Shown in pieces: positions 30,625 through 60,674 of a stretch of 64,000 nucleotides of DNA. The notes below the pieces were generated by a model. That model made no database searches. It was given only the letters and a program-made list of their open reading frames with translations, and was not told the DNA's origin. Location of the stretch: the NCBI RefSeq assembly GCF_014200435.1, contig NZ_JACHBR010000001.1:1302001-1366000 (forward strand), read 5' to 3'. The position numbers and the translations under genes were made by a program. Position 1 is the first letter of the stretch, and each line of letters begins with the position of its first letter. This DNA is from Sphaerisporangium krabiense (lineage in GTDB: Bacteria; Actinomycetota; Actinomycetes; Streptosporangiales; Streptosporangiaceae).

Positions 30625-31239
30625 CTACGGCCTGATCGCTTCGGGGAAACCGGTCCAGCGCAGGTCGGGGGGCAGGTGGCTCATGTCGTTGAACATCACG
30701 ATCGTGGGTGGCAGGCCGTCGCGGTACTCGATGACCGTCAGTGCGGTGTTGGCGCTGTTCAGGCCGAGCCACCGGGACGGCGGCGCGTCCAGTGCGTGCC
30801 GTACCAGCCACGCGATCGGGTAGGCGTGCGTCACCAGGACCTCGTGTGTGTCGAGCCGGGCCCCGTTCGCGGTCGTGCCGGGGACCTTCGCGAACCGGGC
30901 GACCAGGGCCTCGGCGAGCCTCTGGCCGGAGGCCGCCTCGGCGTCGTCGTAACCGTCGAAGAAGCCGGCCCAGGACGGGGGCGTTTCGGCCGCGCTCGGA
31001 ACGTAGGGGACGTGGTCGACGAGTTCGGCGGCCTCGGTCACGGGCACGTCCGGGAGATGACGGGCGAGTTCGCGGGCGCATGCCACGGCACGTGGCAGCG
31101 GAGAGTGCCACACGGCGTCGACCGGTACGCCGGCGAGCCGTTCGCCCAGCAGACCCGCCTGCCGGCGCCCGATATCGGTGAGTTGCCCGAACGCGTCGGC
31201 CGCGCCATGGCGTGCGAGGTAGAGACGTCGAGTCGTCAT
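30625..31239 (-). CDS. Histidine phosphatase (phosphoglycerate mutase-like) family protein
   Basis: The 204-residue protein begins TTRRLYLARHGAAD, with the RHG motif whose His is phosphorylated during catalysis. HSPLPRAVACARELA and THAYPIAWLVRHAL supply the other arginine and histidine. The start overlaps the stop of the upstream PEP/pyruvate-binding protein (ATGA at 31236-31239), so they are translationally coupled. Its substrate could be a phosphorylated product of that enzyme, or the swivelling phosphohistidine itself; this is inference from context. Confidence 0.82.
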   Translation of the reverse strand: MTTRRLYLARHGAADAFGQLTDIGRRQAGLLGERLAGVPVDAVWHSPLPRAVACARELARHLPDVPVTEAAELVDHVPYVPSAAETPPSWAGFFDGYDDAEAASGQRLAEALVARFAKVPGTTANGARLDTHEVLVTHAYPIAWLVRHALDAPPSRWLGLNSANTALTVIEYRDGLPPTIVMFNDMSHLPPDLRWTGFPEAIRP

Positions 31240-33583: not shown

Positions 33584-35437
33584 TCAGACCTGCCGCCAGC
33601 GGAGGGGGACGTCGCGGCCGGCGGTGACGATGAGTCCGGCATGGGCGGTGAACGTGCCGCCCGGCACCGCTTCCGCCTGGACCTCCCATCCGGGCTCGTC
33701 CCTTCCGGTCCCCGTCTCTTGGATCTCGGGCGGGGGAAGCCGGGTCAGCAGGCGACTCTCGGAGTCCAGGGCGAAGAGCCTGCCGTTCATCCCCCCGAGG
33801 GCGACGGCGCCCGCCGACGAGCCGGCAGGCTCCCAGCCGTCGCCGCCGAAGGGCTGCCGCCACAACTCGCCGGAGGACGTGGCGACCCAGAACGTGCAGT
33901 CGGCCACGGCCAGGCCGATCGCGGACTCGGGCGCGGCGCCGACCTCGCGCCATCCCTGCTCGCCGTGGTGCAGGAGCCGCCCGTCATGCGTGACGCCGTA
34001 CAGGCCGGCGGCGAGGCCGCCCGCGGCCTCGCGCGGGACGGCCAGCCCGCACACGCCCTCGGCGAGGCCGACGGGCCGCCAGGGCACGTTCTGACCGCAC
34101 AGCTCCCGGGCCACCAGCGTCCCGTCCCCGCTCACCGCGTACAGCGTCCGGCCGAGCACCGCGAGCGCCCGCAGGTCGGCCAGCGGGCCGATCACGTCCC
34201 AGCGCCCGCCGCCGGGGGCCGACAGCCGGTCGATCACGTTGCGGGTGATCTGGTCGACGACGGGATCGCGCAGGCCGTTGCCCCAGTTCACGGTCGCCGC
34301 GGTGAAGACGGTCCCGAGACCGCTGGTGAACACGCCCATGGTCGCCATGCCGCCCTGTCCGTAGGCGCTCCAGTGCCGCAGGTCCGCGGTGGCGAGGATG
34401 ACGAACGACGGCGGGGTGCCGTCCCTGCCGGTCGCCCGGGGGATTCCGCCGACCTCCTCGAACTCGGCGGCGTCGGTCTCGTAGCCCAGGCACCCCTGGC
34501 CGAACTTGTCGCCGTCGGTCAGCCCCGTCCCCTCGAACACCCAGTGCGCCGCGAACCGCGTCGTGTACGACTCCTCCAGCATGCGCGGCATGTGCGCCCC
34601 CCAGGCTCCGGCGCCCGCGCGGAAGCTCACCCCCGTCAGCGTGTTCTCCGGGCGGTTCACCGGCGCGGCCGACCACTCGACGGTCGTCTGGCGGGGGTCG
34701 GTTGCGGCCATGGGATCGGACATCGCGTCGCGGTGGCACACGATGGTGCGGCCGCCGTCTTCCAGCCTGATCTGCCACCAGCACGTGTTGCCGGAGAAGA
34801 ACGCGACGTTGCCGCCCCGCCGGACGAACTCCTCCACGGAATCGCGCATCCCCAGCGACCAGTACTCGTCATGCCCGTTGACGATCAGCAGCCGGTGCGA
34901 GGACAGCAGGTCGAGGCCGTCGTGCAGGTCGAGGTTGGAGCAGTACGCCACGTCGTGGCCGCCGCGGCGCAGCCAGCGCATCAGGCCCTCCTCCCAGCGT
35001 TCGGGGGGAAACCCGCTGCCGGGCCGGTCGAAGGTCACCCGCGTGGCCCGCGTGGGAGACTCGGTCCAGTAGAGACCCTGCCCCGGCTCCCCCGCCCTGT
35101 TGTACGCCTGCCAGGTGGTGAAGGGGACGCTCAGCAGCATGGGAGAGCTGGGCACGGCCTGCCGCACCACGAAGTAGACCTCGTTGTCCGGGCATGGCGC
35201 GCTCCCGGGCAGCCCGAACGGCCACGGCTCCTCCGGCCCGAAGCGCGCCCGGTAGAGCGAGCTGCGCCAGCCGGCGGGAATGTCCAGCTCCCACCCGGGC
35301 GCGGAGGCGGATCCCTCGAACACCACCCGGTCGTCGATCGCGTCGGTCACCACCACGGGCGCCGGGCGGTCGAGGACGAAGCCGAGCGAGGTCCCTTGCA
35401 CGCAGGATGTCGAGGTGGCGTAGGCGCGAACGGTCAT
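33584..35437 (-). CDS. N,N-dimethylformamidase beta-subunit-like protein
   Basis: The 617-residue protein begins with a beta-sandwich segment, followed by the family core: SVPFTTWQAYNR, LLIVNGHDEYWSLGMRDS and FSGNTCWWQIR, residues typical of the DmfB-like fold. Dimethylformamidase is an iron-dependent amidase. A C-terminal beta-propeller-like region (GGMNGRLFALD, GDGTLVAREL) ends the protein. The start overlaps the condensation gene stop (ATGA), so it is the last gene of the leftward NRPS operon. It may hydrolyse or rearrange an amide in the product, or remove a protecting group; the role is inferred only from location. Confidence 0.8.
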   Translation of the reverse strand: MTVRAYATSTSCVQGTSLGFVLDRPAPVVVTDAIDDRVVFEGSASAPGWELDIPAGWRSSLYRARFGPEEPWPFGLPGSAPCPDNEVYFVVRQAVPSSPMLLSVPFTTWQAYNRAGEPGQGLYWTESPTRATRVTFDRPGSGFPPERWEEGLMRWLRRGGHDVAYCSNLDLHDGLDLLSSHRLLIVNGHDEYWSLGMRDSVEEFVRRGGNVAFFSGNTCWWQIRLEDGGRTIVCHRDAMSDPMAATDPRQTTVEWSAAPVNRPENTLTGVSFRAGAGAWGAHMPRMLEESYTTRFAAHWVFEGTGLTDGDKFGQGCLGYETDAAEFEEVGGIPRATGRDGTPPSFVILATADLRHWSAYGQGGMATMGVFTSGLGTVFTAATVNWGNGLRDPVVDQITRNVIDRLSAPGGGRWDVIGPLADLRALAVLGRTLYAVSGDGTLVARELCGQNVPWRPVGLAEGVCGLAVPREAAGGLAAGLYGVTHDGRLLHHGEQGWREVGAAPESAIGLAVADCTFWVATSSGELWRQPFGGDGWEPAGSSAGAVALGGMNGRLFALDSESRLLTRLPPPEIQETGTGRDEPGWEVQAEAVPGGTFTAHAGLIVTAGRDVPLRWRQV

Positions 35438-36735
35438 CGGACGGCCGCCTCGACGAGAAGACCCTCCAGTTCCAGCAGACAACGCTCCATGTCGGGCCGG
35501 GACAGATATCGGGTGTCGGCGGTGAGCGAGACGCCCTCCGTGGTGAGGTGGACGCAGAACCGGCAGTTCAGCTTGTCCTGGCTCATCGGCCAGGTCACGG
35601 AGCTCCGCGCCAGCGCCGCCGTGATCTCGGCCGGCTCGCACCGGGCGGGGCCCGGGTCGGCGAAGCGCATGTCGTTGAAGCAGCAGTACGGCTGGATCGG
35701 CTCCCCGCGTTCGGCGCCCGCCGACGCGGTGACGCGGTTCCGGTCGGCGGGGTCGTGGTAGGCGCTGCGGTAGGCGCGCAGCGCGGCCGGCCTGGCGGCC
35801 CGCAGCAGGTCGGCGAAGGACGTCCCTTGGCGGTCGAGCGTGAACAGCCCCTCCTGCGACATCGTGGCGACGATGTCCGTCGTGTCGCGCCGGAACCTGT
35901 TGGCCGAGATCGGCAACACCGCGCACGTCTCGTGACCGGTGAACCGGCCGACCAGCTCGGCCGTGGCCGTGAGCAGCACGGTCGAGGTCGAGGCGTTGTG
36001 CGCGGCGGCGATCGAGCGGACGGCGAGCTCCAGGGCCGGGGAGCTCAGCAGCGCCCGCCACACGGGCGGTTCGGCCGGAGAGTCGCTCGGCACGGAGAAC
36101 ATCGTCGGCGGGATCCGCCGGAATTCGCGCTCCCAGTGCGCCGCCGCCGTCTCCGCCGCCCGCCGCCCTTCCGGACCGGCCTGCCAGCGCGCGAGATCGA
36201 GCGGCTGAGAGGCGTCGGGCCGCCGGATGTCACCCCTGAGCAAGAGCAGCCGCAGGTCGCGCAGCGCGACGTCCGCGCCGAAACCGTCGGCGGCCAGATG
36301 GCAGAAGACCAGCACCACATGGGAGACCCGGTCACCGTCGAGGACCAGCGCCACCCGCAGGGGCCATTCGCCGACGTAGTCGAACGGCCGCGCCTCCAGC
36401 TCGCGCATCACCCGCTCGGGATCCTCGGTGGTGACCATGACCGGCAGCCGCCCGTTCTCCTCCAGCCGCTGGTACGGCTCGGCCTGCCCGTACGGCTCGG
36501 CCAGCCTGGTGCGGAGCGCGCCGTGCCGCGCCACCAGGGCGGCCAGCGCCGTGCGCACCTCGGCGACGGTGCGGGAGCCCGGCACCTTCAGCACCTGGCC
36601 GAAGTTGAAGTAGTGATCGTCGGGGGCCGTCCGCACGATCGCCTCCCAGATGGCCCGCTGGCCCCAGGTGAGCGGCGCGTGGCCGGAGCCGGGACCGGCG
36701 AACTCGACGTGCGTCATCCGGTCGGTGGCGTTCAT
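35434..36735 (-). CDS. Free-standing condensation-domain protein
   Basis: This 433-residue NRPS C domain has the catalytic motif as C145-H-L-A-A-D-G151 in FCHLAADGFGAD, where the first His of HHxxxDG is Cys but the catalytic second His is kept. Later segments (TSTVLLTATAELVGRF, then PISANRFRRDT) are typical of the acceptor half. A solitary C domain could join a carrier-bound acyl group to a free or carrier-bound amine. It overlaps its neighbours on both sides by 4 nt, between the carrier-protein and DmfB-like genes. Confidence 0.85.
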   Translation of the reverse strand: MNATDRMTHVEFAGPGSGHAPLTWGQRAIWEAIVRTAPDDHYFNFGQVLKVPGSRTVAEVRTALAALVARHGALRTRLAEPYGQAEPYQRLEENGRLPVMVTTEDPERVMRELEARPFDYVGEWPLRVALVLDGDRVSHVVLVFCHLAADGFGADVALRDLRLLLLRGDIRRPDASQPLDLARWQAGPEGRRAAETAAAHWEREFRRIPPTMFSVPSDSPAEPPVWRALLSSPALELAVRSIAAAHNASTSTVLLTATAELVGRFTGHETCAVLPISANRFRRDTTDIVATMSQEGLFTLDRQGTSFADLLRAARPAALRAYRSAYHDPADRNRVTASAGAERGEPIQPYCCFNDMRFADPGPARCEPAEITAALARSSVTWPMSQDKLNCRFCVHLTTEGVSLTADTRYLSRPDMERCLLELEGLLVEAAVR

Positions 36736-36968
36736 CGGGACGCCAGGTGCCCGGCCAGCCGGTCGAGATCGTCCAGCATGCTCATGCCGTCCTCGCTCAG
36801 ATCGAACTCCACGCCGAACTCCGACTCGATCGCGTCGATCAGCCGCAGCGTCATGATCGACGTGACGCCCAGGGCCGACAGCGGCACGTTCGCGGCCAGC
36901 ACCTCCTCCGCGGTGACGGCGCCGTCGGACGACTCCGCGACGAGCTCCGCCAGCCTCTTCTTGATCAT
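36732..36968 (-). CDS. Free-standing acyl/peptidyl carrier protein
   Basis: The 78-residue carrier has the phosphopantetheine attachment Ser37 in ALGVTSIMTLRLID (variant GxxS). It follows the dimodular NRPS with a 4-nt overlap and overlaps the free C protein. The Thr-Ser-Ile sequence is closer to ACPs of small adenylation or aryl systems than to in-line NRPS T domains. It is a candidate acceptor for the acyl group delivered by the ligase or E2 protein encoded across the promoter. Confidence 0.85.
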   Translation of the reverse strand: MIKKRLAELVAESSDGAVTAEEVLAANVPLSALGVTSIMTLRLIDAIESEFGVEFDLSEDGMSMLDDLDRLAGHLASR

Positions 36969-39900
36969 CTCAGCTCCTTGGCGAGGCGTTCCGCCTCCTC
37001 TTCCGACATCTGGTCGAGCTCGGCGATCAGAAGTTCCTCGACCGCCCGTGCCAGCCCACCGACCGTGGGGTGGGTGAACAGCGTGCGGATGGGCAGCTCC
37101 AGACCGGTCGCGTCGCGCAGCCGGGCGACGATCCGTACGGCGAGCAGCGAGTGGCCGCCGAGCGAGAAGAAGTCGTCGTGGACCCCGGCCTTCTCGACGC
37201 CGAGCATCTCGCCGAAGACCTCGGCCACCAGTTCCTCGGCGTCGGTGCCGGGTGCGACGTACGCCTCCTGGTGCGCCTGCGGGGTGGGCAGCGCGGCCCG
37301 GTCCACCTTCCCGCTCCGCGTCAGCGGCAGCCGGTCGACCCGGGCCCAGGCGGTCGGCACCATGTACGGCGGAAGCGCGGCGCCGGCGAACTCCGCCAGT
37401 TCGGTGAAGTCGGCGGACCCGGTGACGTAGCCGGCCAGCGTGTCGCCGATCGCGACGACCGCCGCCTCGCCCACCTCGGGATGGGCCAGCAGGCGCGCCT
37501 CGATCTCGCCCGGTTCGATACGGAACCCGCGTACCTTCACCTGCTCGTCGAGGCGACCCAGGAACTCCAGCCGCCCGTCGGGCCGCCACCGCGCCCGATC
37601 ACCGGTCCGGTAGACGCGCTCGCCGCGGAAGTCGGCGAACCGTTCGGCGGTGAGCTCGGGACGGCCGAGGTAGCCGCGGGCCACACCGTCCCCACCGACG
37701 CACAGCTCTCCTGCGGCGCCGCGGGGAGCGAGCCGCCCGGCCGCGTCCAGAACGTAGACGCGCGTGCCTCCGATGGGCCTGCCGATCGGCGGACGCCCGG
37801 GGGCGCCGTCCAGCTCGGCGAGCGTGGCGATGATCGTCGCCTCTGTCGGGCCGTAGGTGTTGACCAGCCGGACCCGGTCGCCGAACCGCTCACGCCAGCG
37901 GCGCACCGCGGCCTCGTGTACCTGTTCCCCGCCCAGGATGACCAGCCGCAGCCCGGCCGGCCAGGCGATCGAGTCGATCTGGTCGACCAGGTGGTGCCAG
38001 TAGGCGGTGGGGAGATCCAGGACGGTGACGCCGTCGAGGTGGTCGGTGAGCGTCACCGCGCCGTCCGGCAGGAGTGCCAGGCGGGCGCCGGCGGCCAGCG
38101 TCGGATAGATCTCCTCGGCGTGCGTGTCGAAGCCGAGCGAGGCGAACTGCACGACCCGGTCCCCCGGCCCGAGGCCGTACTCCCGGACCATCCAGGCGAC
38201 CCTGGCCGCGAGGTTGCGGTGCTCCACGACGACGCCCTTCGGCGTCCCGGTCGAGCCGGACGTGTAGATGACGTACGCCGCGGCGTCGCCGGTGACCGGC
38301 ACGGGCTCGGGCGCGCTCCCGGGGACGGCCTGCGACGTGTACGCCACCGGGACGCCCGGCGGCAGCCCGCCGGCCAGGTCGGCGGAGGTCAGGACGAGCG
38401 CGGCGGCGCTGTCGTCGAGCATGAACGCCAGCCGCTCGGCCGGATGTCCGGGGTCGAGCGGCAGGTAGGCCGCCCCGGCGCGCCAGACCGCGAGCAGCGC
38501 GGCGATGGAGTCCGGCGTCCTGCCGAGGAGGACGCCCACGACGTCACCGGGGCGGGCGCCGCGTGCCTGGAGCAGCGCGGCCAGCTCGCCGGCGCGCGCG
38601 TCCAGCTCGCCGTAGGTCAGCTCGCCCACCGCGCGGGAGTCCCGGTGCGCGCGTACGGCCGAGGCCACCAGCTCGGGGACCCGCGGCTCGGCCGCGACGT
38701 CGGGCCCGCGGCCGAGCTCCAGCAGGCGGGCGTCTTCCGCCGCGGTGGTCAGCCGCGGCGGAGCGGCGAAGTCCTGCCGCAGCACACCCTCCAGCCGGGC
38801 CGCCATCGCCTCGATGGTGCCGTGGTCGAACAGCGTGGCGTCGTAGGAGAGCACGACGAGCAACTCGCGCTCGTCCTGCCACGCCTCCAGCATCAGGTCG
38901 AACTTGACCTGCTCGAAGCCGTGCGCGAACGGCTCGGCCACCAGCCCGGAGAAGGCGGCCGGGGGGGCGCCGGTGTCCTGGTTGTGCAGGATCGCCATCG
39001 TCTGGAAGGCGGGGACGCGCAGCCGTTCGAACGGGATGCCCTGATGCTCGAACGCCGACAGGACCGCGTCGCGGGTCCGCTCCAGCGACTCTGCGAAACT
39101 CGGCCGGCCGGTCGCGACGGGAGCCGCGGCGGACGGGTCCGGGCGGATCAGCAGGACGTCGGCCAGGTAGCCGACCGTCTTCTCGGCCTCGACCCAGTCC
39201 CTGCCGGAGGCGACGGTGGCGATCGTGATGTCGCTCTGCCCGCTCTGGGCGGCGAGGACCGCCTGATAGGCGGTCAGCAACGTCATGAACAGCGTCGCGC
39301 CGTGTTCCCTGCCCTGCTCGACCAGCCGCGCCACGTCCTCGGCGGGGAGCCGGAACGTGTGGAAGCCGCCCTTTCTGGCGGGAGGCGAGGTGGGCGGCCT
39401 GTCGGTCGGCAGGTCGAGCTGCGGTGCGCCGGCCAGCCGCTCGCCCCAGTAGGCGACGAGTTCGTCCTGGTTCCGCTCGCGCTGCCATCGGGCGATGTCG
39501 CCGAACTGCAGCGGCACCGGGTCGAGCCGTTCGCCGGAGTAGAGCCGGCCCAGTTCGTCCAGCATGACGTTCAGCGACCAGCCGTCGCCCAGGATGTGGT
39601 GGAGGACCACGCACAGGACGTGGTCCTCGGGGGAGAGCTCGATCAGCGTCACGTGCAGCGGCGGCCGGGAGGCCAGGTCGAACGGCGCGTTCGTGCGCTC
39701 GGCGACCAGCGCCTCCGCGTGCGCGACGCCGGCGGCGGCGAGCGCCTCCACGGGCACGGGCCCTGGCGGCTCGACCACCGCGAGCGGGACGCCGTCCTCC
39801 TCCGGGAACCTCGTGCGCAGGCTCTCGTGCCTGGCGACCAGCGCGGCCAGGGCTCGTTCCAGGGCGACCGCGTCCAGCGGGCCGCGCAACCGCCGGACCA

Positions 39901-42900
39901 GCCACATGTTGTACGACGCGTCGTCAGGGTCGAGCCGGTGCAGGAACCAGAGCCGTTCCTGGCCGGGCGAGAGCGGCGCGGGCTCTCCCGCCGGGCGGGG
40001 GCGCGGCCCGCCGCGGTCCCCCGCGGCGGCTCGGTCTCCCGTGCCGCCCCGGTCCCCCGCGGCGGTCTGGTCGAGCAGCTCGGCCAGCGCCGCGACGGTC
40101 GAGCGGGTGAACAGCTCGCGCACCGGGATCCGTACCGGCAGCCTGGCGGTGACCATGGTGGCCAGCAGCGAATGGCCGCCGAGCGCGAAGAAGTCGTCGT
40201 CCGCCCGCACGTCCGCCGCGCCGAGCACCTCGGCGAACACGCCGGCCACCAGCCGTTCGGCGTCGGTGCGCGGCGGGACGCCCGCGGACCTGGCGACCTG
40301 AGGATGCGGCAGCGCCTTCCTGTCGACCTTGCCGTTCGGGGTGAGCGGCAGCGCGTCGAGCGCCACGACGGTCGCGGGGACCATGTAGCCGGGCAGCTGC
40401 CCGGCGACGTGCCGCCGGAGGTCGAGGACGTCGGGGATGTCAGGGACGTCGGGGACGACGAAGGCCGCGAGCAGGTCGTCGCGTACGGCGACCACGGCCT
40501 GGCGGACGGCCGGATGCGCTTCGAGCACGGCCTCGATCTCGCCGAGCTCGATCCGGTGCCCGCGCAGCTTGACCTGGTTGTCCGTGCGGCCGATGAACTC
40601 CAGCGTGCCGTCCGCCGACCATCTGACGACGTCGCCGGTGCGGTAGACCCGCTCGCCGCCGTGCCGTACGAACCGCTCCGCGGTGAGGTCCGGACGGCCG
40701 TGGTAGCCGTCCGCGACGCCGGCGCCGCCGATCAGCAGCTCACCGGGCACGCCGATCGGGACCGTGGCGCCTTCCTCGTCGACCACGTGGACGGTGGTGT
40801 TCGCGATCGGGCGGCCGATGGTCACCCGATCGGGCCGCTCGGGCACCTCCCAGGCGGTCGACCAGATCGTGGTCTCGGTCGGGCCGTACATGTTGACGAG
40901 CCTGCGTACCCGCGCCCGCAGCTCGGCGGCGAGCGCGAGCGGGAGGGGCTCGCCGCCGGCGAGGGCGACGACCGGCGGGAGGTCGCCCGCGAGCAGCACC
41001 CGCCAGCCCGACGGGGTGGCCTGGACGTGGGTCACGCCCGTGCCGGCGATCAGCCGGGCGAGGGCCGCGCCGTCGCGTGCCGTCTCCGCGCCGGCGACGA
41101 CCACCCGGCCGCCGGTGACCAGCGGCAGGTAGAGCTCCAGCGCGGAGATGTCGAACGACAGCGAGGTGAGCGCGAGCCAGACGTCCGAGGGCTCCGAGCC
41201 GACGAGGTCGCGCATGGCGAGCAGGAAGTTGGTGAGCGCGCGGTGCGGCACCACCACCCCCTTCGGCCGTCCCGTGGAGCCGGAGGTGTAGAGCACGTAG
41301 GCGGTGTCGCCGGGTGAGGGGCGCTCGACCGGGGCCACGCCGGTCGGGTCCTCGCCCGAGAGGAGGTCGTCGAGGTCGGCGTCGGTGAGGACGAGGGACG
41401 CGCCCGAGTCCTCGATCACGTACGCGACGCGGGCCGCCGGGTAGTCGGGGTCCACCGGCAGGTAGGCCGCCCCCGACATCGCGACGCCGAGCAGCGCGAC
41501 GATCATCGCCGGGCCGCGCGACACGCGCACCGCGACCACGGAACCGCGCCCGGCGCCCTGGTCGCGCAGCCGGGCCGCCAGCTCCGCCGCCCGTGCGGCC
41601 AGCTCGCGGTAGGTCAGCTCCCGGCGGATCCCGGGTGCGTCCTCGGAGACCACCGCGACCGCGTCGGGCCCGGCGGCCACCCTGTCGAGCACCAGGTCGA
41701 CCAGGGTGAGCGGCGGCAGCTCGGCCGCGGTGTCGTTCCACGCGGCGAGCCTGGCCCGCTCGCGCCCGGTGAGCAGGTCGAGCCGTCCCACGGGCAGCGA
41801 GGGGTCGGCGACGGCCGAGGCGAGCAGCACGAGGTAGCGCTCCGTCAACAGCTCGACCGTCTCGCGGTCGAACAGCTCCTCGCTGTAGATGGCGACGCCG
41901 AGCACGCCGCCGTCGTCCTCCGCGTACAGGTCGAGCGACAGGTCGACCCTGGCGGGGTGCCAGCCGAGCGGGAACGGCTCGGCGGCCAGGCCCGGCACCG
42001 GATCGGCGACGTCGCCGTGGGTGTGCAGCGCGAACATGGTCTGGAACAGCGGTGTCCTGCTCGGGTCGCGTTCCACGCCGAGCACGCCGATCAGCCGCTC
42101 GAACGACACGTCCCGATGGGTGAGCGCGGCGAGGACCGCCCGGCGGGTGCGGCGGAGCAGTTCGGCGAAGGTCGGCGAACCGGACAGGTCACATCGGAGC
42201 ACCATGGTCGTCGACAGGTAGCCGATCATCTGTTCCAGCTCGGTGCTGTCGCGGCCGGCCGAGGGGGTCCCCACGCAGAAGTCCGCCTGCCCGCTGTGCC
42301 GGGACAGCAGCGCCTGGTAGGCCGCGAGCTGCACCATGTACGGCGTGCAGCGCGCCTGCCGGGCCGCCTCCGCCACCTTGGCGGCCAGCTCGGGCGGGAT
42401 GCGGAAACGCACCTCCCCGCCCACCGTGCCCCGCGTGGCCGGACGCACCCGGTCGGCGGGGAGCTCAAGGACGGGCGCCCCGGCCAGCCGCGACACCCAC
42501 CAGTCCAGCTCCGCGGCGTCGTCGCGGGCGAGCACGTGGTCGCCGTACTGCGGCGGGAGCGCCTCGGGGAGCGCCCGGCCCGCGTAGTGGTCGGCCACCT
42601 CGGTCCTGAGCACGTTGAGCGACCAGCCGTCGCCGTTGATGTGGTGCAGCACGACGCACAGCACGTGGTCGGCCGGGCCGAGGCGGACCAGCGTGACCCG
42701 GAAGGGCGGCCGCTCGGCGAGGTCGAACGCGGCGTTGGTGCGGGCGCGGACGATCCGCCTGGCCTCGTCCTCCGAGTCCGCCGTGACCTGCTCGATCGTC
42801 ACCGGGGCCGGCGGCTCCACGACGGCCGCCGGCCGTCCGTCGACCTGGACGAAGCGTGTGCGCAGCGCGCCGTGCCTGGCCGTGACCGCGCTGAAGGCGG

Positions 42901-43033
42901 CTTCGAGGGCCGGGATGTCGAGCTCTCCGCGCAGCCGGTACGCGTAGACGGTGTTGTACGAGGGGTCGTCGGGATCGAGTTGGTTCAAGAACCAGAGTCG
43001 TTCCTGGCCACGGGACAGCGGACCTGTCTTCAC
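36965..43033 (-). CDS. Dimodular NRPS (C-A-T-C-A-T)
   Basis: The protein has about 2022 residues. C1 at 1-440 has HHINGDG, and A1 at 460-900 has YVLYTSGSTGRPKGV near 579. T1 is near 953 (FALGGHSLLA), and C2 has HHILGDGWS near 1146. A2 has YVIYTSGSTGTPKG near 1586, and T2 is near 1956. There is no epimerase or thioesterase. The A1 pocket residues read DILQLGMIWK, a glycine code. A2 reads DTEDIGTIIK, resembling lysine or beta-lysine codes. Because the first module starts with C and no loading domain is present, an N-acyl starter is implied. GGGGGAAGG precedes the GTG at 43033. The T2 product would be passed to the C-A-T-TE-MFS protein. Confidence 0.93.
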   Translation of the reverse strand: MKTGPLSRGQERLWFLNQLDPDDPSYNTVYAYRLRGELDIPALEAAFSAVTARHGALRTRFVQVDGRPAAVVEPPAPVTIEQVTADSEDEARRIVRARTNAAFDLAERPPFRVTLVRLGPADHVLCVVLHHINGDGWSLNVLRTEVADHYAGRALPEALPPQYGDHVLARDDAAELDWWVSRLAGAPVLELPADRVRPATRGTVGGEVRFRIPPELAAKVAEAARQARCTPYMVQLAAYQALLSRHSGQADFCVGTPSAGRDSTELEQMIGYLSTTMVLRCDLSGSPTFAELLRRTRRAVLAALTHRDVSFERLIGVLGVERDPSRTPLFQTMFALHTHGDVADPVPGLAAEPFPLGWHPARVDLSLDLYAEDDGGVLGVAIYSEELFDRETVELLTERYLVLLASAVADPSLPVGRLDLLTGRERARLAAWNDTAAELPPLTLVDLVLDRVAAGPDAVAVVSEDAPGIRRELTYRELAARAAELAARLRDQGAGRGSVVAVRVSRGPAMIVALLGVAMSGAAYLPVDPDYPAARVAYVIEDSGASLVLTDADLDDLLSGEDPTGVAPVERPSPGDTAYVLYTSGSTGRPKGVVVPHRALTNFLLAMRDLVGSEPSDVWLALTSLSFDISALELYLPLVTGGRVVVAGAETARDGAALARLIAGTGVTHVQATPSGWRVLLAGDLPPVVALAGGEPLPLALAAELRARVRRLVNMYGPTETTIWSTAWEVPERPDRVTIGRPIANTTVHVVDEEGATVPIGVPGELLIGGAGVADGYHGRPDLTAERFVRHGGERVYRTGDVVRWSADGTLEFIGRTDNQVKLRGHRIELGEIEAVLEAHPAVRQAVVAVRDDLLAAFVVPDVPDIPDVLDLRRHVAGQLPGYMVPATVVALDALPLTPNGKVDRKALPHPQVARSAGVPPRTDAERLVAGVFAEVLGAADVRADDDFFALGGHSLLATMVTARLPVRIPVRELFTRSTVAALAELLDQTAAGDRGGTGDRAAAGDRGGPRPRPAGEPAPLSPGQERLWFLHRLDPDDASYNMWLVRRLRGPLDAVALERALAALVARHESLRTRFPEEDGVPLAVVEPPGPVPVEALAAAGVAHAEALVAERTNAPFDLASRPPLHVTLIELSPEDHVLCVVLHHILGDGWSLNVMLDELGRLYSGERLDPVPLQFGDIARWQRERNQDELVAYWGERLAGAPQLDLPTDRPPTSPPARKGGFHTFRLPAEDVARLVEQGREHGATLFMTLLTAYQAVLAAQSGQSDITIATVASGRDWVEAEKTVGYLADVLLIRPDPSAAAPVATGRPSFAESLERTRDAVLSAFEHQGIPFERLRVPAFQTMAILHNQDTGAPPAAFSGLVAEPFAHGFEQVKFDLMLEAWQDERELLVVLSYDATLFDHGTIEAMAARLEGVLRQDFAAPPRLTTAAEDARLLELGRGPDVAAEPRVPELVASAVRAHRDSRAVGELTYGELDARAGELAALLQARGARPGDVVGVLLGRTPDSIAALLAVWRAGAAYLPLDPGHPAERLAFMLDDSAAALVLTSADLAGGLPPGVPVAYTSQAVPGSAPEPVPVTGDAAAYVIYTSGSTGTPKGVVVEHRNLAARVAWMVREYGLGPGDRVVQFASLGFDTHAEEIYPTLAAGARLALLPDGAVTLTDHLDGVTVLDLPTAYWHHLVDQIDSIAWPAGLRLVILGGEQVHEAAVRRWRERFGDRVRLVNTYGPTEATIIATLAELDGAPGRPPIGRPIGGTRVYVLDAAGRLAPRGAAGELCVGGDGVARGYLGRPELTAERFADFRGERVYRTGDRARWRPDGRLEFLGRLDEQVKVRGFRIEPGEIEARLLAHPEVGEAAVVAIGDTLAGYVTGSADFTELAEFAGAALPPYMVPTAWARVDRLPLTRSGKVDRAALPTPQAHQEAYVAPGTDAEELVAEVFGEMLGVEKAGVHDDFFSLGGHSLLAVRIVARLRDATGLELPIRTLFTHPTVGGLARAVEELLIAELDQMSEEEAERLAKELR

Positions 43034-43057
43034 GTGCCTTCCCCCGGCAGGTGTTGT

Positions 43058-43074
43058 TTTGGAAAGATTATTAA
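43058..43074. promoter_or_regulatory. Degenerate copy of the AGGAAAGTTTCCT-type palindrome
   Basis: This plus-strand segment matches TTAGGAAAGTTTCCTAA at 13 of 17 positions. A TAATAAT -10-like box for the leftward NRPS operon overlaps it on the minus strand. Confidence 0.35.
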
Positions 43075-43213
43075 CTGTTTTCGGGTTGGCCGCAGTGTTC
43101 CATGGATCTTCGGCCACCCGCAAGGCTTCGCCGGCGGCGGCGCAGGGCCGGGTCGGCGCGCGGAGGGTTGCCGCTTCGGCGGCCTCGTGCCAGACTGTCG
43201 CCCGCAATTTTTA

Positions 43214-43230: not shown

Positions 43231-43346
43231 TAGAGGTCTCCGGTGGTCACGCGTACCCGCATGGCCGGGCGACCTCTGACCTGGGAATTCCCGTCCTGTT
43301 TATGTACACCGGCGTGCGCGTCCTGGCGACTTGCGGGGAGCCGATC

Positions 43347-44747
43347 ATGAGCATGACTCTTCCCGGCCTGCTTCGAAAGCGGGCCGCCACCGATCCCGGC
43401 CAGGTGGCGATGACCGTCCACGGCTCAGGCTCGCTGACCTTCGGCGAGTGGGAACGCAGGTCGTCCGGCACGGCCCGCGCGCTGCGCGGCCGTGGGATCG
43501 GGCGCGGCGACCGGGTCGGCCTCGTGTTCGGCAACGGCGACTGGCTGGACTACGCGGTCGCGTTCCTCGGCGTGATCAGGGCGGGGGCGGTCGCCGTACC
43601 GCTCTCCGACCGCCTGGCCGGCGTGGACGTCGACGCGATGCTCGCGCACTGCGGCGCCACGGCGGTGCTGCGGCCGGGCGAGCTGCCGTACGCCGAGGGC
43701 GGCGAGGATCTCGAACCGGTGGCGCCCGGCGACCCGGCGCAGATCCTCTACACGTCCGGCACCACCGGCCGGCCCAAGGGGGTCGCCGCCACCCACGCGA
43801 ACCTGGCCTACGGCTGCGGGGGCCGCCGTAGGCCGTTCACCCATTCCCGCCACCTCGCGCACGCCTTCCCCGTCGGCACCAACGCCGGCCAGTGGATGCT
43901 GGTCAACGCCGTGGACGCGCACCCCGAGGTGGTCACGCTGCCGCGTTTCACGCCCGGCAGGTTCGCCGCGCTGATCGAGCACTACCGGGCGGGCACGGTC
44001 TTCGTGGTCCCCGCCATGGCGATCGAGATGCTCGCCGCCGGGGTGCAGGCCAGGCACGACCTGTCGAGCGTGCTGCTACTCGGCTCGGCGGCGGCGCCGC
44101 TGCCCGCGCGGGTCGCGGGCGATCTCAGCGCCGCCTTCCCCAACGCGACGATCACGAACTACTACACCTCGACCGAGGCCGCGCCCGCGCAGACCGTGAT
44201 GATCTACGATCCCGAGCGGCCGTCCAGCGTGGGCCGCCCGCTCTCCGGCGGGGCCGTCAGGATCGCCGCCGCGGACGGCGGGGCGCTGCCGCCCGGCACG
44301 ACCGGCGAGGTGTGGATGCGGTCGCCGGCCGCCACCCGCGCCTACTACGGCGACGAGGCCGCCACCGGCGAGGTCTTCCGGGGAGGCTGGGTGCGCATGG
44401 GAGATCTCGGCTACCTGGACGGCGACGGCTACCTCTACCTGGTCGACCGCGAGAGCGACGTGATCAAGTCGGGGGCCTACAAGGTGTCGACGATCCATGT
44501 CGAGGAGGCCGTCCACCGGCACCCCGGCGTCGTGGAGGCGGCCGCCTTCGGGGTGCCGCACCCGACGCTCGGCAAGGCCGTCGCGGTCGCCGTCGTCGGG
44601 AGCGTCCCGCACGAAGAGCTGCGCATCTTCCTGAAGGACCTGCTGGCCCCGCACGAGCTTCCCTTACGGCTCATCACCCTCGACGCCCTGCCGCGCAACC
44701 ACGGCGGCAAGGTCGACAAGCGCTCACTCCGAGAGGTCGCATCATGA
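43347..44747 (+). CDS. AMP-dependent acyl/amino-acid ligase (class I adenylate-forming)
   Basis: The 466-residue protein is short for the family. It has A3-like QILYTSGTTGRPKGVAATH, an A5-like YYTSTEAAP and A8-A10 (LYLVDRESDVIKSGAYKVS, GGKVDK) with the catalytic Lys. It lacks NRPS-specific pocket signatures and looks like an acyl- or aryl-CoA/ACP ligase. The ATG at 43347 has GGGGAG (43335-43340) six bases upstream. It leads the rightward NRPS operon and may load a starter acid on the free carrier protein or the C-T protein. The substrate is not predictable from what I see. Confidence 0.85.
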   Translation: MSMTLPGLLRKRAATDPGQVAMTVHGSGSLTFGEWERRSSGTARALRGRGIGRGDRVGLVFGNGDWLDYAVAFLGVIRAGAVAVPLSDRLAGVDVDAMLAHCGATAVLRPGELPYAEGGEDLEPVAPGDPAQILYTSGTTGRPKGVAATHANLAYGCGGRRRPFTHSRHLAHAFPVGTNAGQWMLVNAVDAHPEVVTLPRFTPGRFAALIEHYRAGTVFVVPAMAIEMLAAGVQARHDLSSVLLLGSAAAPLPARVAGDLSAAFPNATITNYYTSTEAAPAQTVMIYDPERPSSVGRPLSGGAVRIAAADGGALPPGTTGEVWMRSPAATRAYYGDEAATGEVFRGGWVRMGDLGYLDGDGYLYLVDRESDVIKSGAYKVSTIHVEEAVHRHPGVVEAAAFGVPHPTLGKAVAVAVVGSVPHEELRIFLKDLLAPHELPLRLITLDALPRNHGGKVDKRSLREVAS

Positions 44748-46246
44748 CGGAGGTCTCGTCCGCCCAGCATGGGATGTGGGTCACCGAGCGGATGGGAGTG
44801 GGGACGGCCTACCACATGCCGATCGTGATCCGCTTCGACGGCTCGCGCGCCCCCGATCCGGCCGTCCTGGCCAAGGCGTGCGCAGGCGTGGTCGAGCGGC
44901 ATCCGCTGCTGGGCCGAGCCGTACGGGAGCACGACGGCGTGCCGCACCTGGTCCCCGCCACCCGGCCCCCGTCCATGGAGACGGGGGACTCGGTGGAGGA
45001 GGCCGTCAGACGGCCCTTCGACCTGGAGAACGGCCCGCTCGTCCGCTTCACGCTCGTCGGCGACACCCTCGTGATCGTCGCCCACCACCTGGTCTTCGAC
45101 GGCGGGTCCAAGGACGTCCTGGTCGCCGACCTCGCCGCCTTCGCGGCCGGCGCCGTACCGCCGCCGCTCGAACCCGTCGACCACGCCGCCGGCCGGCGGG
45201 ATCGGGTGGCCGCCTCGCTCGGCGCGGCTCGCGCGTTCTGGGCGGACAGGTGGCGCGAACCAGGCGACACCGTCGTACCGGGCGGGGCGCTCCGCTCCCG
45301 CGGAGGCGGCCCGGGGCGGCTGCTGGAGTTCACGCTCGACGTCCCCGAAGCACCCGGTCTGACGAGGTTCGAGGTGCTGCTGGCGGCGCTGCACGCGCTC
45401 CTCATGTCGTACGGCAACGCCGACGTCGTCACCGCGATCGACCTGTCGACCCGCACCGCCGAGTCGGAGGGACACATCGGCCCCTTCGTCAACGAACTTC
45501 CCGTCTTCTCGAGCCCGCCGCCCGACGCGCCGTTCGTCACGTTCGCCGCCGGGCTGCGCGCCGAGCTCAGGAGCCTCTACGCCTATCGCGAGGTCCCCCT
45601 GGCCAGGGCGGTCGCCGGGCTGAGACCGCACGCGGCGCTCGCTCCCGTCTCGGTCAGCTACCGGCGCGGTCCGGCGGCGTACGGCCGGGATTCGCGGGAG
45701 CGTCCGGCGGAAGCGTTCGGCCAGGTCGACTGGCTGGCGTTCAACCACGCGGTGCGGGGCGCCCTGCAGCTCCAGGTCCTCGACCGCCGTTCCCCCGGCG
45801 TGACGGCGCCGGGAATGACCGCCAGCCTCCGTTACGCCCCCGGCGAGCTGACCGATCCGGCCGGGTTCGCCGACGACCTCCGGGCGGTGCTGGCGGCGAT
45901 CGCCCAGGATCCCGCCCGGCCCCTGGAGACGCTGCTGCCCCGGGAATCCGTGGTCGCCTCGCCCGTCCGCGCCGTACCGGCGCCTGCCGTACCGGAGGCG
46001 GAGGACACCGGCGCCGGCGTGGATCTCGACGATCCGCTGGCGGCCGAGATCCGCGCCATCTGGGAGGAGGTGCTCAAGCTCGCTCCCATCGAGCCGCACG
46101 ACGACATCTTCGACCTCGGCGGCCACTCGCTGACCATCACGCAGATCATCGCCCGCATGCAGAAGCGGCTGGGCGTGGAGGTCGAGCTGGACGACTTCTT
46201 CGACAACCCGACGATCGCCGGCGTGCTCCAGGTGATCCGCCGATGA
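44744..46246 (+). CDS. NRPS C-T didomain protein
   Basis: The protein has 500 residues. The condensation domain has an intact H114-H-L-V-F-D-G120 motif (VAHHLVFDGGSKD), followed from about residue 420 by a carrier domain with DIFDLGGHSLTI. No adenylation domain is present, so the carrier must be loaded in trans, either by the preceding ligase or by the E2 protein encoded three genes later. Starts and stops overlap with both neighbours (ATGA). The pairing of an extra C with an extra T mirrors the free C and free carrier of the opposite arm. Confidence 0.9.
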   Translation: MTEVSSAQHGMWVTERMGVGTAYHMPIVIRFDGSRAPDPAVLAKACAGVVERHPLLGRAVREHDGVPHLVPATRPPSMETGDSVEEAVRRPFDLENGPLVRFTLVGDTLVIVAHHLVFDGGSKDVLVADLAAFAAGAVPPPLEPVDHAAGRRDRVAASLGAARAFWADRWREPGDTVVPGGALRSRGGGPGRLLEFTLDVPEAPGLTRFEVLLAALHALLMSYGNADVVTAIDLSTRTAESEGHIGPFVNELPVFSSPPPDAPFVTFAAGLRAELRSLYAYREVPLARAVAGLRPHAALAPVSVSYRRGPAAYGRDSRERPAEAFGQVDWLAFNHAVRGALQLQVLDRRSPGVTAPGMTASLRYAPGELTDPAGFADDLRAVLAAIAQDPARPLETLLPRESVVASPVRAVPAPAVPEAEDTGAGVDLDDPLAAEIRAIWEEVLKLAPIEPHDDIFDLGGHSLTITQIIARMQKRLGVEVELDDFFDNPTIAGVLQVIRR

Positions 46247-47184
46247 CGCGGCCGTCCACGGCCCTGAAGGGCGAGACGTCCGATCCGGCCGTCTCCGCGC
46301 CGCAGGACGCCGATCTCTCGCTCATGCTGATGATCCGGGCGTTCGAGCTGAAGCTGCTCGACCTGTACGGCCGGGGTCTGCTCAACGGCACGACCCACAC
46401 CTGTCTCGGGCAGGAGTACGTCCCGGTCGCCGTGGAGGCGCTGCTCGACCCGCGTGACCACGTGTTCAGCAACCACCGCGGGCACGGCCACTACCTGGCG
46501 CGCTTCCGCGACCCCGCCGGACTGCTCGCGGAGATCATGGGCCGGGAGGGGGCCGTCTGCGCGGGGGTCGGCGGCAGCCAGCACATCCACAGGGACCGCT
46601 TCCTGTCCACGGGAGTGCAGGGGGAGAGCCTGCCGGTCGCCGCGGGGGTCGCGCTGCACCTCAAGCGGTCCGAGCCCGGCCGCCTCGCCTGCGTCTACGT
46701 CGGGGACGGCACGTTCGGCGAGGGCGCGGTCTACGAGGCGTTCAACATCGCGTCGCTGTGGGGCCTGCCGCTGCTCGTCGTCGTCGAGAACAACGGCATC
46801 GCCCAGTCGACGCCCACGACCCGGCACCTGGCGGGGAGCATCGCGGGCCGGGCGGCGGCGTTCGGCATCGACCACCGCCTGGTCGAGACCTCCGACGTCA
46901 CCGAGATCCGCCGGACGCTCGAACCCCTGGTGTCGCGGGTCCGTTCCCGCGCGACGCCTCTCGTCGTCGAGTTCGTCACCCGGCGCCTCGGACCGCACAG
47001 CAAGGGCGACGACACCCGGCCGGTCCGTGCCCTAGAGGAGATGCGCGAGCAGGACTGGTACGCGCGGTGCGCGGCGGCGTGCCCCGGCCGTTTCCCGCGG
47101 CTCGACGCGGAGGCTCGCGCGCACATCGACGCGGTCGCCGCGGAGGTCATGGCGCGGGGTCCGTCACAGTGGGAGGGGTCGTGA
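46243..47184 (+). CDS. 2-oxoacid dehydrogenase E1 alpha subunit
   Basis: This 313-residue thiamine-pyrophosphate enzyme subunit has the TPP motif GDGTFGEGAVYEAFNIAS...NN (core GDGTFGEG, ending VVVENN) and SNHRGHGHYLA, which is characteristic of pyruvate/acetoin/branched-chain E1 alpha. With the beta subunit it decarboxylates a 2-oxoacid and transfers the acyl group to the lipoyl arm of E2. The ATG at 46243 overlaps the previous stop and its own stop overlaps the next GTG. Its placement within an NRPS operon is the key feature. The substrate specificity cannot be judged from sequence alone. Confidence 0.88.
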   Translation: MTRPSTALKGETSDPAVSAPQDADLSLMLMIRAFELKLLDLYGRGLLNGTTHTCLGQEYVPVAVEALLDPRDHVFSNHRGHGHYLARFRDPAGLLAEIMGREGAVCAGVGGSQHIHRDRFLSTGVQGESLPVAAGVALHLKRSEPGRLACVYVGDGTFGEGAVYEAFNIASLWGLPLLVVVENNGIAQSTPTTRHLAGSIAGRAAAFGIDHRLVETSDVTEIRRTLEPLVSRVRSRATPLVVEFVTRRLGPHSKGDDTRPVRALEEMREQDWYARCAAACPGRFPRLDAEARAHIDAVAAEVMARGPSQWEGS

Positions 47185-48164
47185 GGGTAGCGGAGAACCT
47201 GAACGCGGCGCTGGCCGCCCTGCTCGCGCGGGAGCCGAACCTCTACGTGCTGGGAGAGGACGTCGTCGATCCGTACGGCGGCGCCTTCAAGATCACTCGG
47301 GGCCTGTCCACGGACTTCCCCGATCGCGTCCTGTCGACCCCGATCAGCGAGAACGCCATCACCGGCGTCGCCGCGGGCCTCGCGCTGGCGGGAGACCTGG
47401 CGATCGTCGAGATCATGTTCGGCGACTTCGCCGCGCTCGCCTTCGACCAGTTGTTCAACTTCGCCTCGAAGTCGGTCTCCATGTACGGCTCCCGCCTGCC
47501 GATGCGCATGGTCGTCCGCTGCCCGGTCGGCGGCGGGCGCGGTTACGGGCCGACCCACAGCCAGAGCCCGCAGAAGCACTTCGTCGGCATCCCCGGGCTG
47601 GCCCTCTACGAGCTGTCGCCGTTCCACGACAACCTGGCCGTGTTCGAGGAGATGTTCGCCCGGGAGGAACCGTGCGTGTTCTTCGAGGACAAGGTGCTCT
47701 ACACGCGCCGGATGGGCGCCGTGGAGCCGCCGTTCTCGGTGGAGATCTCCGGCGGCGTGGCCCGGGTTTCCCTCGACGGTCCCCCCGACTGCGTGATCAT
47801 CGCCCCCGGCGGGGTGGCGCATCGGGCGCTGGCCGCGATGCGCTCGCTGCTGGTCGAGGAGGAGATCGCCTGCACGCTGCTGGTGCCGTCCAGGCTGTAC
47901 CCGTTCGACCCGCCCGATCTCTTCGACGCGGCCGTCCGCGCGGCGCGCCGGGTGTTCGTCGTCGAGGAGAGCACCGCCGGGGGGACGTGGGGCGCCGAGG
48001 TGGCCCACCTCGTCCATCGGCGGCACTGGGGGCGCCTGGACCTGCCGGTCACGTTGATCCACTCTCCTGGCGGGGTCATTCCCACCGCGGCCCATCTCGA
48101 GCGGGCGGCCCTCGTGAACGAGTCCACGATCCACAGCACGATCAGGGGGACCCTCCGTGGCTGA
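47181..48164 (+). CDS. 2-oxoacid dehydrogenase E1 beta subunit
   Basis: The 327-residue transketolase-like protein has YVLGEDVVDPYGGAFK at the N-terminus, the STPISENAITGVAAGLAL acidic segment that activates TPP, and a C-terminal half with SPHSP-like RLYPFDPP and EESTAGGTWGAE. It pairs with E1 alpha in an alpha2-beta2 enzyme. GGGAGGGG precedes the GTG at 47181, which overlaps the E1 alpha stop. Its stop overlaps the E2 start by 8 nt. Confidence 0.88.
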   Translation: MRVAENLNAALAALLAREPNLYVLGEDVVDPYGGAFKITRGLSTDFPDRVLSTPISENAITGVAAGLALAGDLAIVEIMFGDFAALAFDQLFNFASKSVSMYGSRLPMRMVVRCPVGGGRGYGPTHSQSPQKHFVGIPGLALYELSPFHDNLAVFEEMFAREEPCVFFEDKVLYTRRMGAVEPPFSVEISGGVARVSLDGPPDCVIIAPGGVAHRALAAMRSLLVEEEIACTLLVPSRLYPFDPPDLFDAAVRAARRVFVVEESTAGGTWGAEVAHLVHRRHWGRLDLPVTLIHSPGGVIPTAAHLERAALVNESTIHSTIRGTLRG

Positions 48165-49277
48165 GCTCCGCGTGCCGAAGCTGAACAACAACGACACCGA
48201 GTACCTCCTCGTCGAATGGCTCGCCGCCGACGGCGCGCGGGTCGCCGCGGACGACGCGGTCGTGCTGGTGGAGACGTCCAAGGCCACCGAGGAGCTCACC
48301 GCGGGCGCCTCCGGCTTCCTTCGTCACAGGCTCCGGCCGGGGGTCTGGTGCCACCCGGACGACGTGATCGCCTCGATCGACGGGACGGCGGAAGCCCCCG
48401 GCCCCGAGCCGGCGTCCCCGGACAGGGCGTCCCCGGTGACGGCTCAGCGGGACACCGCCGGCGACTCGGCGCCGCTCGTCACGGCCCCCGCGCAGGCGCT
48501 CATCGACGAGCTCGGCATCGACCTCGAACGGGTCAGGGCGCTCGGCGTCCCCGTCGTCCGGCGGGCCGACGTCGAACGCCTGGCCGCCACGCCTGACGCC
48601 GGTGGCGCCACGCCCGGCGCCACCAGCGGCGAGACCCCCGCCGCCGGGCGTGCCGAGCACCCGCTCTCGCGGGTGCAGCGGGCCGTGGCCAGGTCCGTCG
48701 AGCTGTCCCACCAGACCATCCCCGCCGCGTACGCCGTCGTGCGCATGGATCTCGGCCAGGCGCTGGAACACGCGCGGGCCACGACCAGGGAGATCCGCCG
48801 CCCCGTGGGGCTCGCGGAGGTGTTCGTCCAGGCCGTCGCGGGCCTGCACGAACGGTTCCCGCTGTTCTTCGCCACCGTCGACGGCACACGGGCGCTGCTG
48901 TCCGAAGCCCCGAACATCGGCGTCACCGTCGACGTCGGCGAGGGGCTGTACGTCCCCGTCGTCCACGACGCGGCCGGCCGTACGACGAAGGACATCGCGA
49001 CGACCCTGATGAAGCACCGGCTCGCCGCCGCCACCGGCGAGTTCAAGGAGAGCGATCTGTCCGGCGCCAACATCGTCGTCACCCTGCACACCGAGCACGG
49101 CGTCGTCCTGGCGATCCCGTTCATCTTCCCCGGCACCGTCTGCGCGCTCGCCGTCGCCGGGCCGCGTGACGGAACCCTCGCGGACATCGGACTGGCCTAC
49201 GACCACCGCCTGATCAACGGCAGGGACGCCGCCCTCTTCCTGAACGCGCTCAAAGCCGTCGTCGAAAGGCTCACCTG

Positions 49278-49278
<1 letters not shown>
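48157..49278 (+). CDS. 2-oxoacid dehydrogenase E2 (dihydrolipoyl acyltransferase)
   Basis: The 373-residue protein has one lipoyl domain with K42 in VLVETSKATEEL, a short subunit-binding-like segment (LIDELGIDLERVRALG) and an acyltransferase catalytic domain (about residues 165-373) with AYDHRLINGRDAA. The canonical DHRxxDG appears here as DHRLING, with Asn for Asp. E2 normally passes acyl groups to CoA; in an NRPS operon a carrier protein is a possible acceptor. No E3 dihydrolipoamide dehydrogenase gene is in the window, so one would be shared. Its stop and the NRPS start overlap by 1 nt (TGATG). Confidence 0.88.
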
Positions 49279-54704
<5,426 letters not shown>

Positions 54705-60448: not shown

Positions 60449-60674
60449 CGATAAACTTTCCCTTCGCTCTCTGTGAGGCCGCTCCACCACGCGCACCCGC
60501 TCCCAGGCGGCCTTGCCGTTCGACCGGCGGGCCATGCGATGCCGACCACGACCTCGGCATGGCGGCCCGGTGGCGCACACGACCTGGCCCGTGACCGCCC
60601 CGCCCGCACGCGGAGGGGACGCCGCGCGGGCGAGCCATCGGCACACTCCACCCCCCACCCCCAGGGAGTGTCAC

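Follow-up and report, generated by a model that had tools for sequence, protein, structure and literature searches.

Overlapping genes for E1 alpha, E1 beta and E2 proteins of the 2-oxoacid dehydrogenase type lie inside a nonribosomal peptide synthetase (NRPS) cluster in a 64,000-nucleotide stretch of the genome of the soil actinomycete Sphaerisporangium krabiense (contig 1, NZ_JACHBR010000001.1, bases 1302001-1366000, GC content 71%, genome size 8.53 Mb; hereafter the window). Judged by clade, domain content and carrier linkage, this core machinery is of a known kind. It is probably a thiamine diphosphate (ThDP)/lipoyl system of the NapB/NapC/NapD type that loads a glycolyl unit onto a carrier protein, and the same comparisons make carrier loading of some sort highly likely. 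A few antitumour alkaloid pathways are known to load a two-carbon unit directly onto an assembly line. An earlier note on this DNA had proposed NapB/NapD-type acyl delivery to a carrier; at the level of sequence this stood, by both the E1 alpha and the E2 phylogeny and by a carrier beside the operon in 71 of 84 loci, and the function itself we infer. The observations that carry the reading are gene organisation, domain content, clade, carrier adjacency and residues common to, and specific for, the family.

The E1/E2 genes and their family

All three genes are encoded on the plus strand. The E1 alpha-type ThDP subunit (46243-47184, 313 aa, Pfam E1_dh 6e-44) resembles NapB, QncN and SclQ2; the E1 beta-type subunit (47181-48164, 327 aa, Transket_pyr 2e-24 and Transketolase_C 2e-11) resembles SclQ3 and the N-terminal part of NapD and QncL, its functional start, judging from homologues, most likely being the GTG at 47181. 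E2 (48157-49278, 373 aa, Biotin_lipoyl 2e-6 and 2-oxoacid_dh 3e-31) consists of a lipoyl domain with Lys42, a degenerate peripheral-subunit-binding domain (PSBD) and an acyltransferase catalytic domain with His350 and Asn354. The overlaps with NRPS genes on both sides that the earlier note had described were found, amounting to 4 bp between the preceding condensation-thiolation (C-T) gene and E1 alpha, 4 bp between E1 alpha and E1 beta, 8 bp between E1 beta and E2, and 1 bp between E2 and the following NRPS gene. It was equally right that no E3 accompanies them: none of the genome's six Pyr_redox_dim matches is in the window, all six being located elsewhere. The genome furthermore has two lipA matches and six other E2-type catalytic domains. 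By Pfam scores and conservation in relatives the E1/E2 gene set is real, far beyond chance.

A blastn search of plasmid records identified homologous operons in four other actinomycetes; the three examined (L008, L009 and L010) all have a carrier directly before E1 alpha. From a contig search with four E1 alpha sequences the best 80 of 279 relatives were kept, giving 84 loci including the window for comparison, not all of them independent since L052 and L073 are one strain and L014 and L080 bear one strain number. These best 80 span 26 actinomycete genera and one cyanobacterium. The latter, Desmonostoc muscorum (L088), also has the operon with an adjacent carrier.

In the E1 alpha tree (88 sequences) the 83 family rows, including the window, are separated from five E1 alphas encoded elsewhere in the same genome by a branch with support 97/99, and in the E2 tree (80 catalytic domains) 74 family rows are separated from the six other E2s of the genome with support 100/99, with the caveat that long branches meet among the E2 rows. 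Neither E2 nor E1 alpha of the window therefore groups with the genome's own CoA (coenzyme A)-type copies. The nearest named relatives of the window are Microbispora. The trees cover neither the Desmonostoc locus, unread by the GC-based gene caller, nor E2s called at 300 aa or less, nor three of the eight other E1_dh matches of the genome (L096 and L098, which lie beyond the family profile, and one without a locus).

Both trees place three loci with a Nap-like arrangement within the family, namely L066 (Actinocrispum wychmicini), L079 and L090 (Umezawaea). In each, E1 alpha is followed in turn by a 76-92-aa carrier, an E1 beta/E2 fusion (645-702 aa) and a 334-336-aa protein. Pfam recognises PP-binding, Transket_pyr, Transketolase_C, Biotin_lipoyl, 2-oxoacid_dh and ketosynthase III (KSIII) in L090, the last being the 334-336-aa protein. 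The dnacin genes follow the same order, DinU (306 aa), DinT (76), DinS (754) and DinQ (336) being homologues of NapB, NapC, NapD and NapE (PMC7570522, Table 1), and U. tangerina genes are among the best matches in the gene table of that paper. L066 additionally encodes an ADC synthase (compare DinV) and HpaB (DinW), and L090 encodes HpaB (DinW), an ABC transporter (DinR6), an FAD monooxygenase (DinX) and a methyltransferase of 244 aa (DinY). Because gene order and neighbours match the dnacin set, the three loci were used as stand-ins for NapB, NapC and NapD, and it is with these NapD-type stand-ins that the window E2 groups, the outcome of the phylogeny that the earlier note had put forward as a check.

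Of 200 genomes from the same taxonomic family, 65 had an E1 alpha orthologue (E <= 1e-90), and among the matches listed there identity falls from 56% within the protein family to 40% for the next homologues; 17 of 394 genomes of the class had one (1e-80), 15 of them again from the own taxonomic family. On these comparisons the E1/E2 genes form a sharply bounded family, which as judged from the sequences includes the NapB/NapD-type genes and excludes the CoA-type E1 and E2 of the genome.

Residues mark the same boundary. HSKGDD in E1 alpha occurs in 83/83 family rows and 0/5 canonical rows, and the Lys of the KH motif in E1 beta in 79/79 and 0/4, the Nap-like rows carrying both; such extra basic residues near the E1 active site would suit a phosphorylated donor. 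Lys254 of E1 alpha is one of these family-specific residues. All 74 family E2s have the lipoyl motif E[TS]SK, and the window E2 retains the lipoyl Lys and the catalytic His. It has lost the subunit-binding loop GTGxxG, reading ALGVPVV at that position; this loop is found in only one of 74 family E2s versus three of the six other E2s of the genome (L001-L003), a fourth (L004) having PSGPGG in its place while none was found in L005 and L006. Similarly, the catalytic-domain loop [STN][NS]xGxxG is present in 0/74 family E2s versus 6/6 of those of the genome (4/6 by a stricter pattern). The AlphaFold2 model of E2 (mean predicted local distance difference test score, pLDDT, 86) shows a three-helix segment at 110-144 and keeps the E2 core, and Foldseek matched it against the Protein Data Bank to E2 cores, including Azotobacter vinelandii E2p. 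Model and search confirm the predicted E2 fold, which does not separate CoA from carrier as acceptor.

The E2 motif DHRLING is present as the earlier note had read it, and its Asn had been taken there as a possible sign of a changed acceptor. Asn is found at this site in 77 of 78 readable family E2s (the remaining one has Thr; two further E2s are unreadable) and in none of the six other E2s of the genome (five Asp, one Gln). The CoA-type E2p of A. vinelandii has Asn where E. coli has Asp607, Asn being the less frequent residue (PMC8421416), so Asn354 marks the family but is not diagnostic, and we rejected the argument as worded. The lost subunit-binding loop and the lost TNxGxxG stretch are, in sequence terms, the better signs of divergence.

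Carrier proteins beside the operon

A carrier profile seeded from 20 of the 84 loci detected a carrier directly upstream of the operon in 67, inside it in three, downstream in one and nowhere adjoining in 13; all 71 adjoining carriers are within 260 bp of the operon. Since the 20 seed loci match by construction, the count describes rather than tests the association. Pfam PP-binding confirmed all ten carriers checked, namely the 78-aa protein of the window and nine elsewhere, two of them barely over the cut-off. In the window a dedicated carrier overlaps E1 alpha in the form of a T domain fused to a C domain, not as a free acyl carrier protein (ACP): the 500-aa C-T protein (44744-46246, plus strand) matches Pfam Condensation (7e-25) and PP-binding (5e-19) and carries the motifs HHLVFDG and LGGHSL.

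This form varies within the family: certain genera have a separate carrier protein, and others carry it as the T domain of a C-T protein. Of eight Streptosporangium and Planobispora/Planomonospora loci examined, seven (all but L028) have ligase, C and T (76-79 aa) as three genes, and the C part of the window protein matches the middle gene of each of the seven at 52-55% identity (blastp); C and T are fused in one protein in L039 (Microbispora) and in the window. The carrier thus keeps its place by E1 alpha whether split from C or fused to it, which argues for it being a partner of E1/E2. Of the 83 other loci, 50 (from 16 genera) have homologues of ligase and C-T protein beside the operon, as counted with identity limits, since an E-value threshold also admits ordinary NRPS adenylation (A) and C domains.

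Among the operons lacking an adjacent carrier are five of Nonomuraea (L071, L076, L081, L085 and L089), and in the two of these whose gene lists were examined NRPS-size genes follow on the other strand. The carrier is one gene away in L075 and none is nearby in L087. Closely similar operons occur in L042, L045, L054, L058, L059 and L060, from Nocardia, Lentzea, Saccharopolyspora and Streptomyces. The flanks of L054, L059 and L060 differ except for one common gene of about 362 aa, and transposase-like genes were seen by eye in L059; the carrier-less operon of these six loci is possibly mobile.

Two further neighbourhoods involve FkbH. In Micromonospora lupini (L062, 5107-10007) genes for FkbH, a second FkbH-C-like protein, KSIII and a carrier directly precede the E1/E2 operon, where glyceryl and glycolyl loading of carriers may come together. 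Proteins of 514-531 aa directly after E2 in L009 (22968-24512) and L063 (13138-14733) match the FkbH model over its C-terminal part alone, with scores under the cut-off, and could be accessory acyltransferases.

Proposed reaction and competing explanations

Donor, acyl group, acceptor, transfer and order of steps are here inferred from the comparisons above. E1 alpha and E1 beta with ThDP would take up a two-carbon unit whose donor is most likely a ketose phosphate, as is reported for the Nap and Qnc enzymes. The lipoyl group on Lys42 of E2 would be oxidatively acylated by E1, and the E2 catalytic domain (His350, Asn354) would hand the acyl group, most likely glycolyl, to the phosphopantetheine thiol of a carrier and not to CoA. 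The dihydrolipoyl group would be re-oxidised by an E3 borrowed from housekeeping complexes, and a condensation domain of the cluster would then join the loaded unit to the peptide. As acceptor the earlier note had named either the C-T protein or the free carrier at 36732, a 78-aa protein that is indeed present on the minus strand (36732-36968). We favour the C-terminal T domain of the overlapping C-T protein because it adjoins the operon, and rank the free carrier second.

Several points weigh against glycolyl loading of this T domain. No carrier adjoins the operon in the 13 loci mentioned, and in L042, L045, L054, L058, L059 and L060 the sequence examined shows neither a carrier nor any C, A or KS domain, so that the operon can exist without its supposed acceptor. 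The stand-alone ligase gene overlaps the C-T gene, and the ligase could load that T domain, or indeed either carrier, which weakens the case for the T domain as acceptor. The Nap side of the trees consists of three syntenic stand-ins, not of NapB/NapD, QncN/QncL and SclQ2-4 themselves, and the canonical controls are solely copies from the own genome (6/6 of its other E2s, 5/8 of its other E1_dh matches). Finally, deletion of the corresponding genes in the scleric acid producer did not fully abolish the product (PMC6335953).

Loading of the T domain from an ordinary 2-oxo acid such as pyruvate, 2-oxobutyrate or a branched-chain acid, placing acetyl, propionyl or a branched acyl group on it, is unlikely, but of the alternatives it fares best. 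E1 alpha is of the PF00676 (2-oxoacid) type, and its best NCBIfam hit, a sub-threshold one, is the pyruvate dehydrogenase (PDH) E1 alpha. In the pepteridine pathway an E1 is proposed to act with an E2 fused to T and C domains, primed by 2-oxo acids (PMC5384830), and since the acyl source there is 2-oxo acids, this remains the main rival. The E1 loop residues of the window, which agree with the Nap-like rows and differ from five E1 alphas and four E1 betas of the genome, speak against it.

The enzymes might also make an acyl-CoA starter, branched-chain or PDH-like, for the ligase or a condensation domain, the neighbouring carrier being coincidental. We consider this rather improbable, although the catalytic His and DHR are intact, Asn is tolerated in CoA-type E2p, the E2 fold matches CoA-type E2 cores and 13/84 loci have no adjacent carrier. 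Both E2 and E1 alpha fall outside the CoA-type copies of the genome, carrier adjacency is kept in 71/84 loci, and the GTGxxG loop persists in 1/74 family E2s versus 3/6 of the genome (PSGPGG in a fourth). There is also no E3 in the window, though E3 is often shared between 2-oxoacid dehydrogenase complexes.

In a third account E2 would transfer the acyl group to a hydroxyl or amine on an intermediate, either carrier-bound or released, as in Agg4/AbmA4-like tailoring, with no thiol being loaded. E2-like proteins of that type are short and are not known to work with a lipoyl domain and E1 partners. E2-like proteins act in tetronate acylation (PMC5819245), and FkbH and KSIII genes stand beside the operon in L062; these did not turn up in the window cluster in the scans run, however, and AbmA4 has 280 aa (PMC5819245), whereas the window E2 has 373 aa and a lipoyl domain and is encoded together with both E1 subunits, which places it outside this class and makes tailoring very unlikely. 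Least probable is self-resistance, a spare altered E1/E2 guarding against an inhibitor of 2-oxoacid dehydrogenase E2, as dynaplanin probably is: resistance mutations to dynaplanin do map to E2 (PMC9239090), whereas the window has a full E1 alpha/E1 beta/E2 set with an overlapping carrier gene in a biosynthetic NapB/NapD-type clade, unlike a resistant E2 copy.

The surrounding cluster and its place among known systems

The conserved cluster comprises ten genes (33584-54704), each 91-96% identical in a close relative (G191). The comparison with G191 used a 35 kb stretch, reaching about 5 kb past the DMFA2 gene and 8.5 kb past the end of the transporter region, with matches at E 1e-10. The minus-strand half begins at the cluster edge with an N,N-dimethylformamidase-beta-like (DMFA2-like) protein of 617 aa (33584-35437; Pfam DMFA2_C 4e-74 on the longer open reading frame (ORF) 33584-36061), 91% identical in G191 and with a homologue of at least 50% identity in 22 of the other 83 loci. 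Its position within an NRPS cluster is a feature for which nothing linking dimethylformamidases to such clusters was found in the open-access literature. It is followed by a stand-alone condensation-type protein of 433 aa (35434-36735, Pfam Condensation 3e-18, 94% identical in G191), the free 78-aa carrier (PP-binding 1e-7, 94%), which is the second candidate acceptor, and an NRPS with domains C-A-T-C-A-T (36965-42988, 2007 aa with the start taken from the gene caller, 94%), assigned by Pfam on the longer ORF 36965-43207 and by motifs.

The plus-strand half consists of a stand-alone AMP-forming ligase of 481 aa (43302-44747), the C-T protein, E1 alpha, E1 beta, E2 and a C-A-T-TE-MFS protein. 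The ligase is nearer to acyl- and aryl-CoA ligases than to amino-acid A domains and has a homologue (at least 60% identity over 60% of the length) in 50 of the 83 other loci. The last protein (49278-54704, 1808 aa, Pfam; 94% identical in G191) combines an NRPS module, a thioesterase (TE) and a major facilitator superfamily (MFS) transporter in one chain. A synthetase fused to its apparent exporter looks unusual to us. In 36 other loci, too, the MFS part lies within one called gene (1682-2041 aa), so the fusion is no sequencing artefact.

Genes for a PPDK/PEP-utiliser protein, a phosphatase and LuxR were dropped as cluster members, having no match (E 1e-10) in the 35 kb of G191; the SARP gene (24236-25156) lies beyond the reach of the compared stretch. 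The first of these (31236-32477, minus strand) is a short 413-aa PPDK_N and PEP-utiliser protein that resembles parts of PEP synthase, Rph and PigC/RedH. Elsewhere in the window, a large open frame at 60513-62846 contains three chitin-binding CBM5/12 stretches and fibronectin type III, with no catalytic domain shown by Pfam. No description of the cluster was found in the open-access papers searched on Nap/Scl-type systems and Streptosporangiaceae examples.

The closest published layout is that of SclQ1-4 from scleric acid biosynthesis in Streptomyces sclerotialus, where a carrier (76 aa), an E1 alpha-like (305 aa), an E1 beta-like (338 aa) and a lipoyl-E2 protein (386 aa) are separate (PMC6335953). 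The window shares this layout of carrier, E1 alpha, E1 beta and E2 unfused to one another, and hence its set belongs to a known kind. Deletion of sclQ1-4 left residual product only and glycolate restored it, an NRPS C domain being proposed to condense the glycolyl unit (PMC6335953). The window differs in that its carrier is the NRPS-type T of a C-T protein and in that its cluster has three amino-acid modules, a stand-alone ligase, a second carrier and the DMFA2-like protein.

NapB/C/D and QncN/M/L (naphthyridinomycin, quinocarcin) and DinU/T/S (dnacin) have E1 alpha and E2 of the same family, as judged on L066, L079 and L090. In these Nap-like sets the carrier gene is located between the E genes, E1 beta is joined to E2 in one chain, no alignment is obtained for the PSBD region and next comes a KSIII; the window has its carrier beside the E genes, E1 beta and E2 as two proteins, a PSBD-like fold in the model and no KSIII detected by the scans run. 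In pepteridine biosynthesis (Photorhabdus) a PDH-like E1 and the E2-T-C protein Plu2796 are proposed to prime a carrier in a pathway without E3 (PMC5384830). This resembles the window in that E1/E2 would prime a carrier linked to a C domain, and differs in that T and C are there fused to E2, whereas in the window they are fused together and apart from it. Polyoxypeptin, where KSIII, ACP, an 82-aa E2-annotated protein and E1 genes are found side by side (PMC3943440), is possibly another cousin. No related E1/E2 was found in the excerpted text of the chalkophomycin paper (PMC11085572). With the CoA-type pyruvate and branched-chain complexes the window shares E1 alpha, E1 beta and lipoyl-E2 domains, the DHR motif and the E2 core fold; it is on the other side of both trees, has lost the subunit-binding and TNxGxxG loops, has no E3 in the window and has an adjacent carrier.

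What is new here is the breadth of the family, the T of a C-T protein as linked carrier and the conserved orphan cluster with its TE-MFS fusion. For this orphan NRPS cluster, from DMFA2 to TE-MFS (33584-54704), a building block becomes predictable before the product is known. HSKGDD in E1 alpha, KH in E1 beta, DHRxxNG in E2 and an adjacent carrier together provide a genome-mining signature against CoA-type complexes, and the family makes testable how an E2 might switch its acceptor from CoA to a carrier protein. More tentatively, and with less than even confidence, loading of glycolyl or a related two-carbon unit by E1/E2 may be a general way of priming NRPS and polyketide synthase (PKS) lines in actinomycetes; in clusters of the window type it would charge the T domain paired with a C domain, which could then esterify a carrier-bound hydroxy acid to give an undescribed depsipeptide-like class. 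If true, glycolyl loading would not be peculiar to the tetrahydroisoquinolines.

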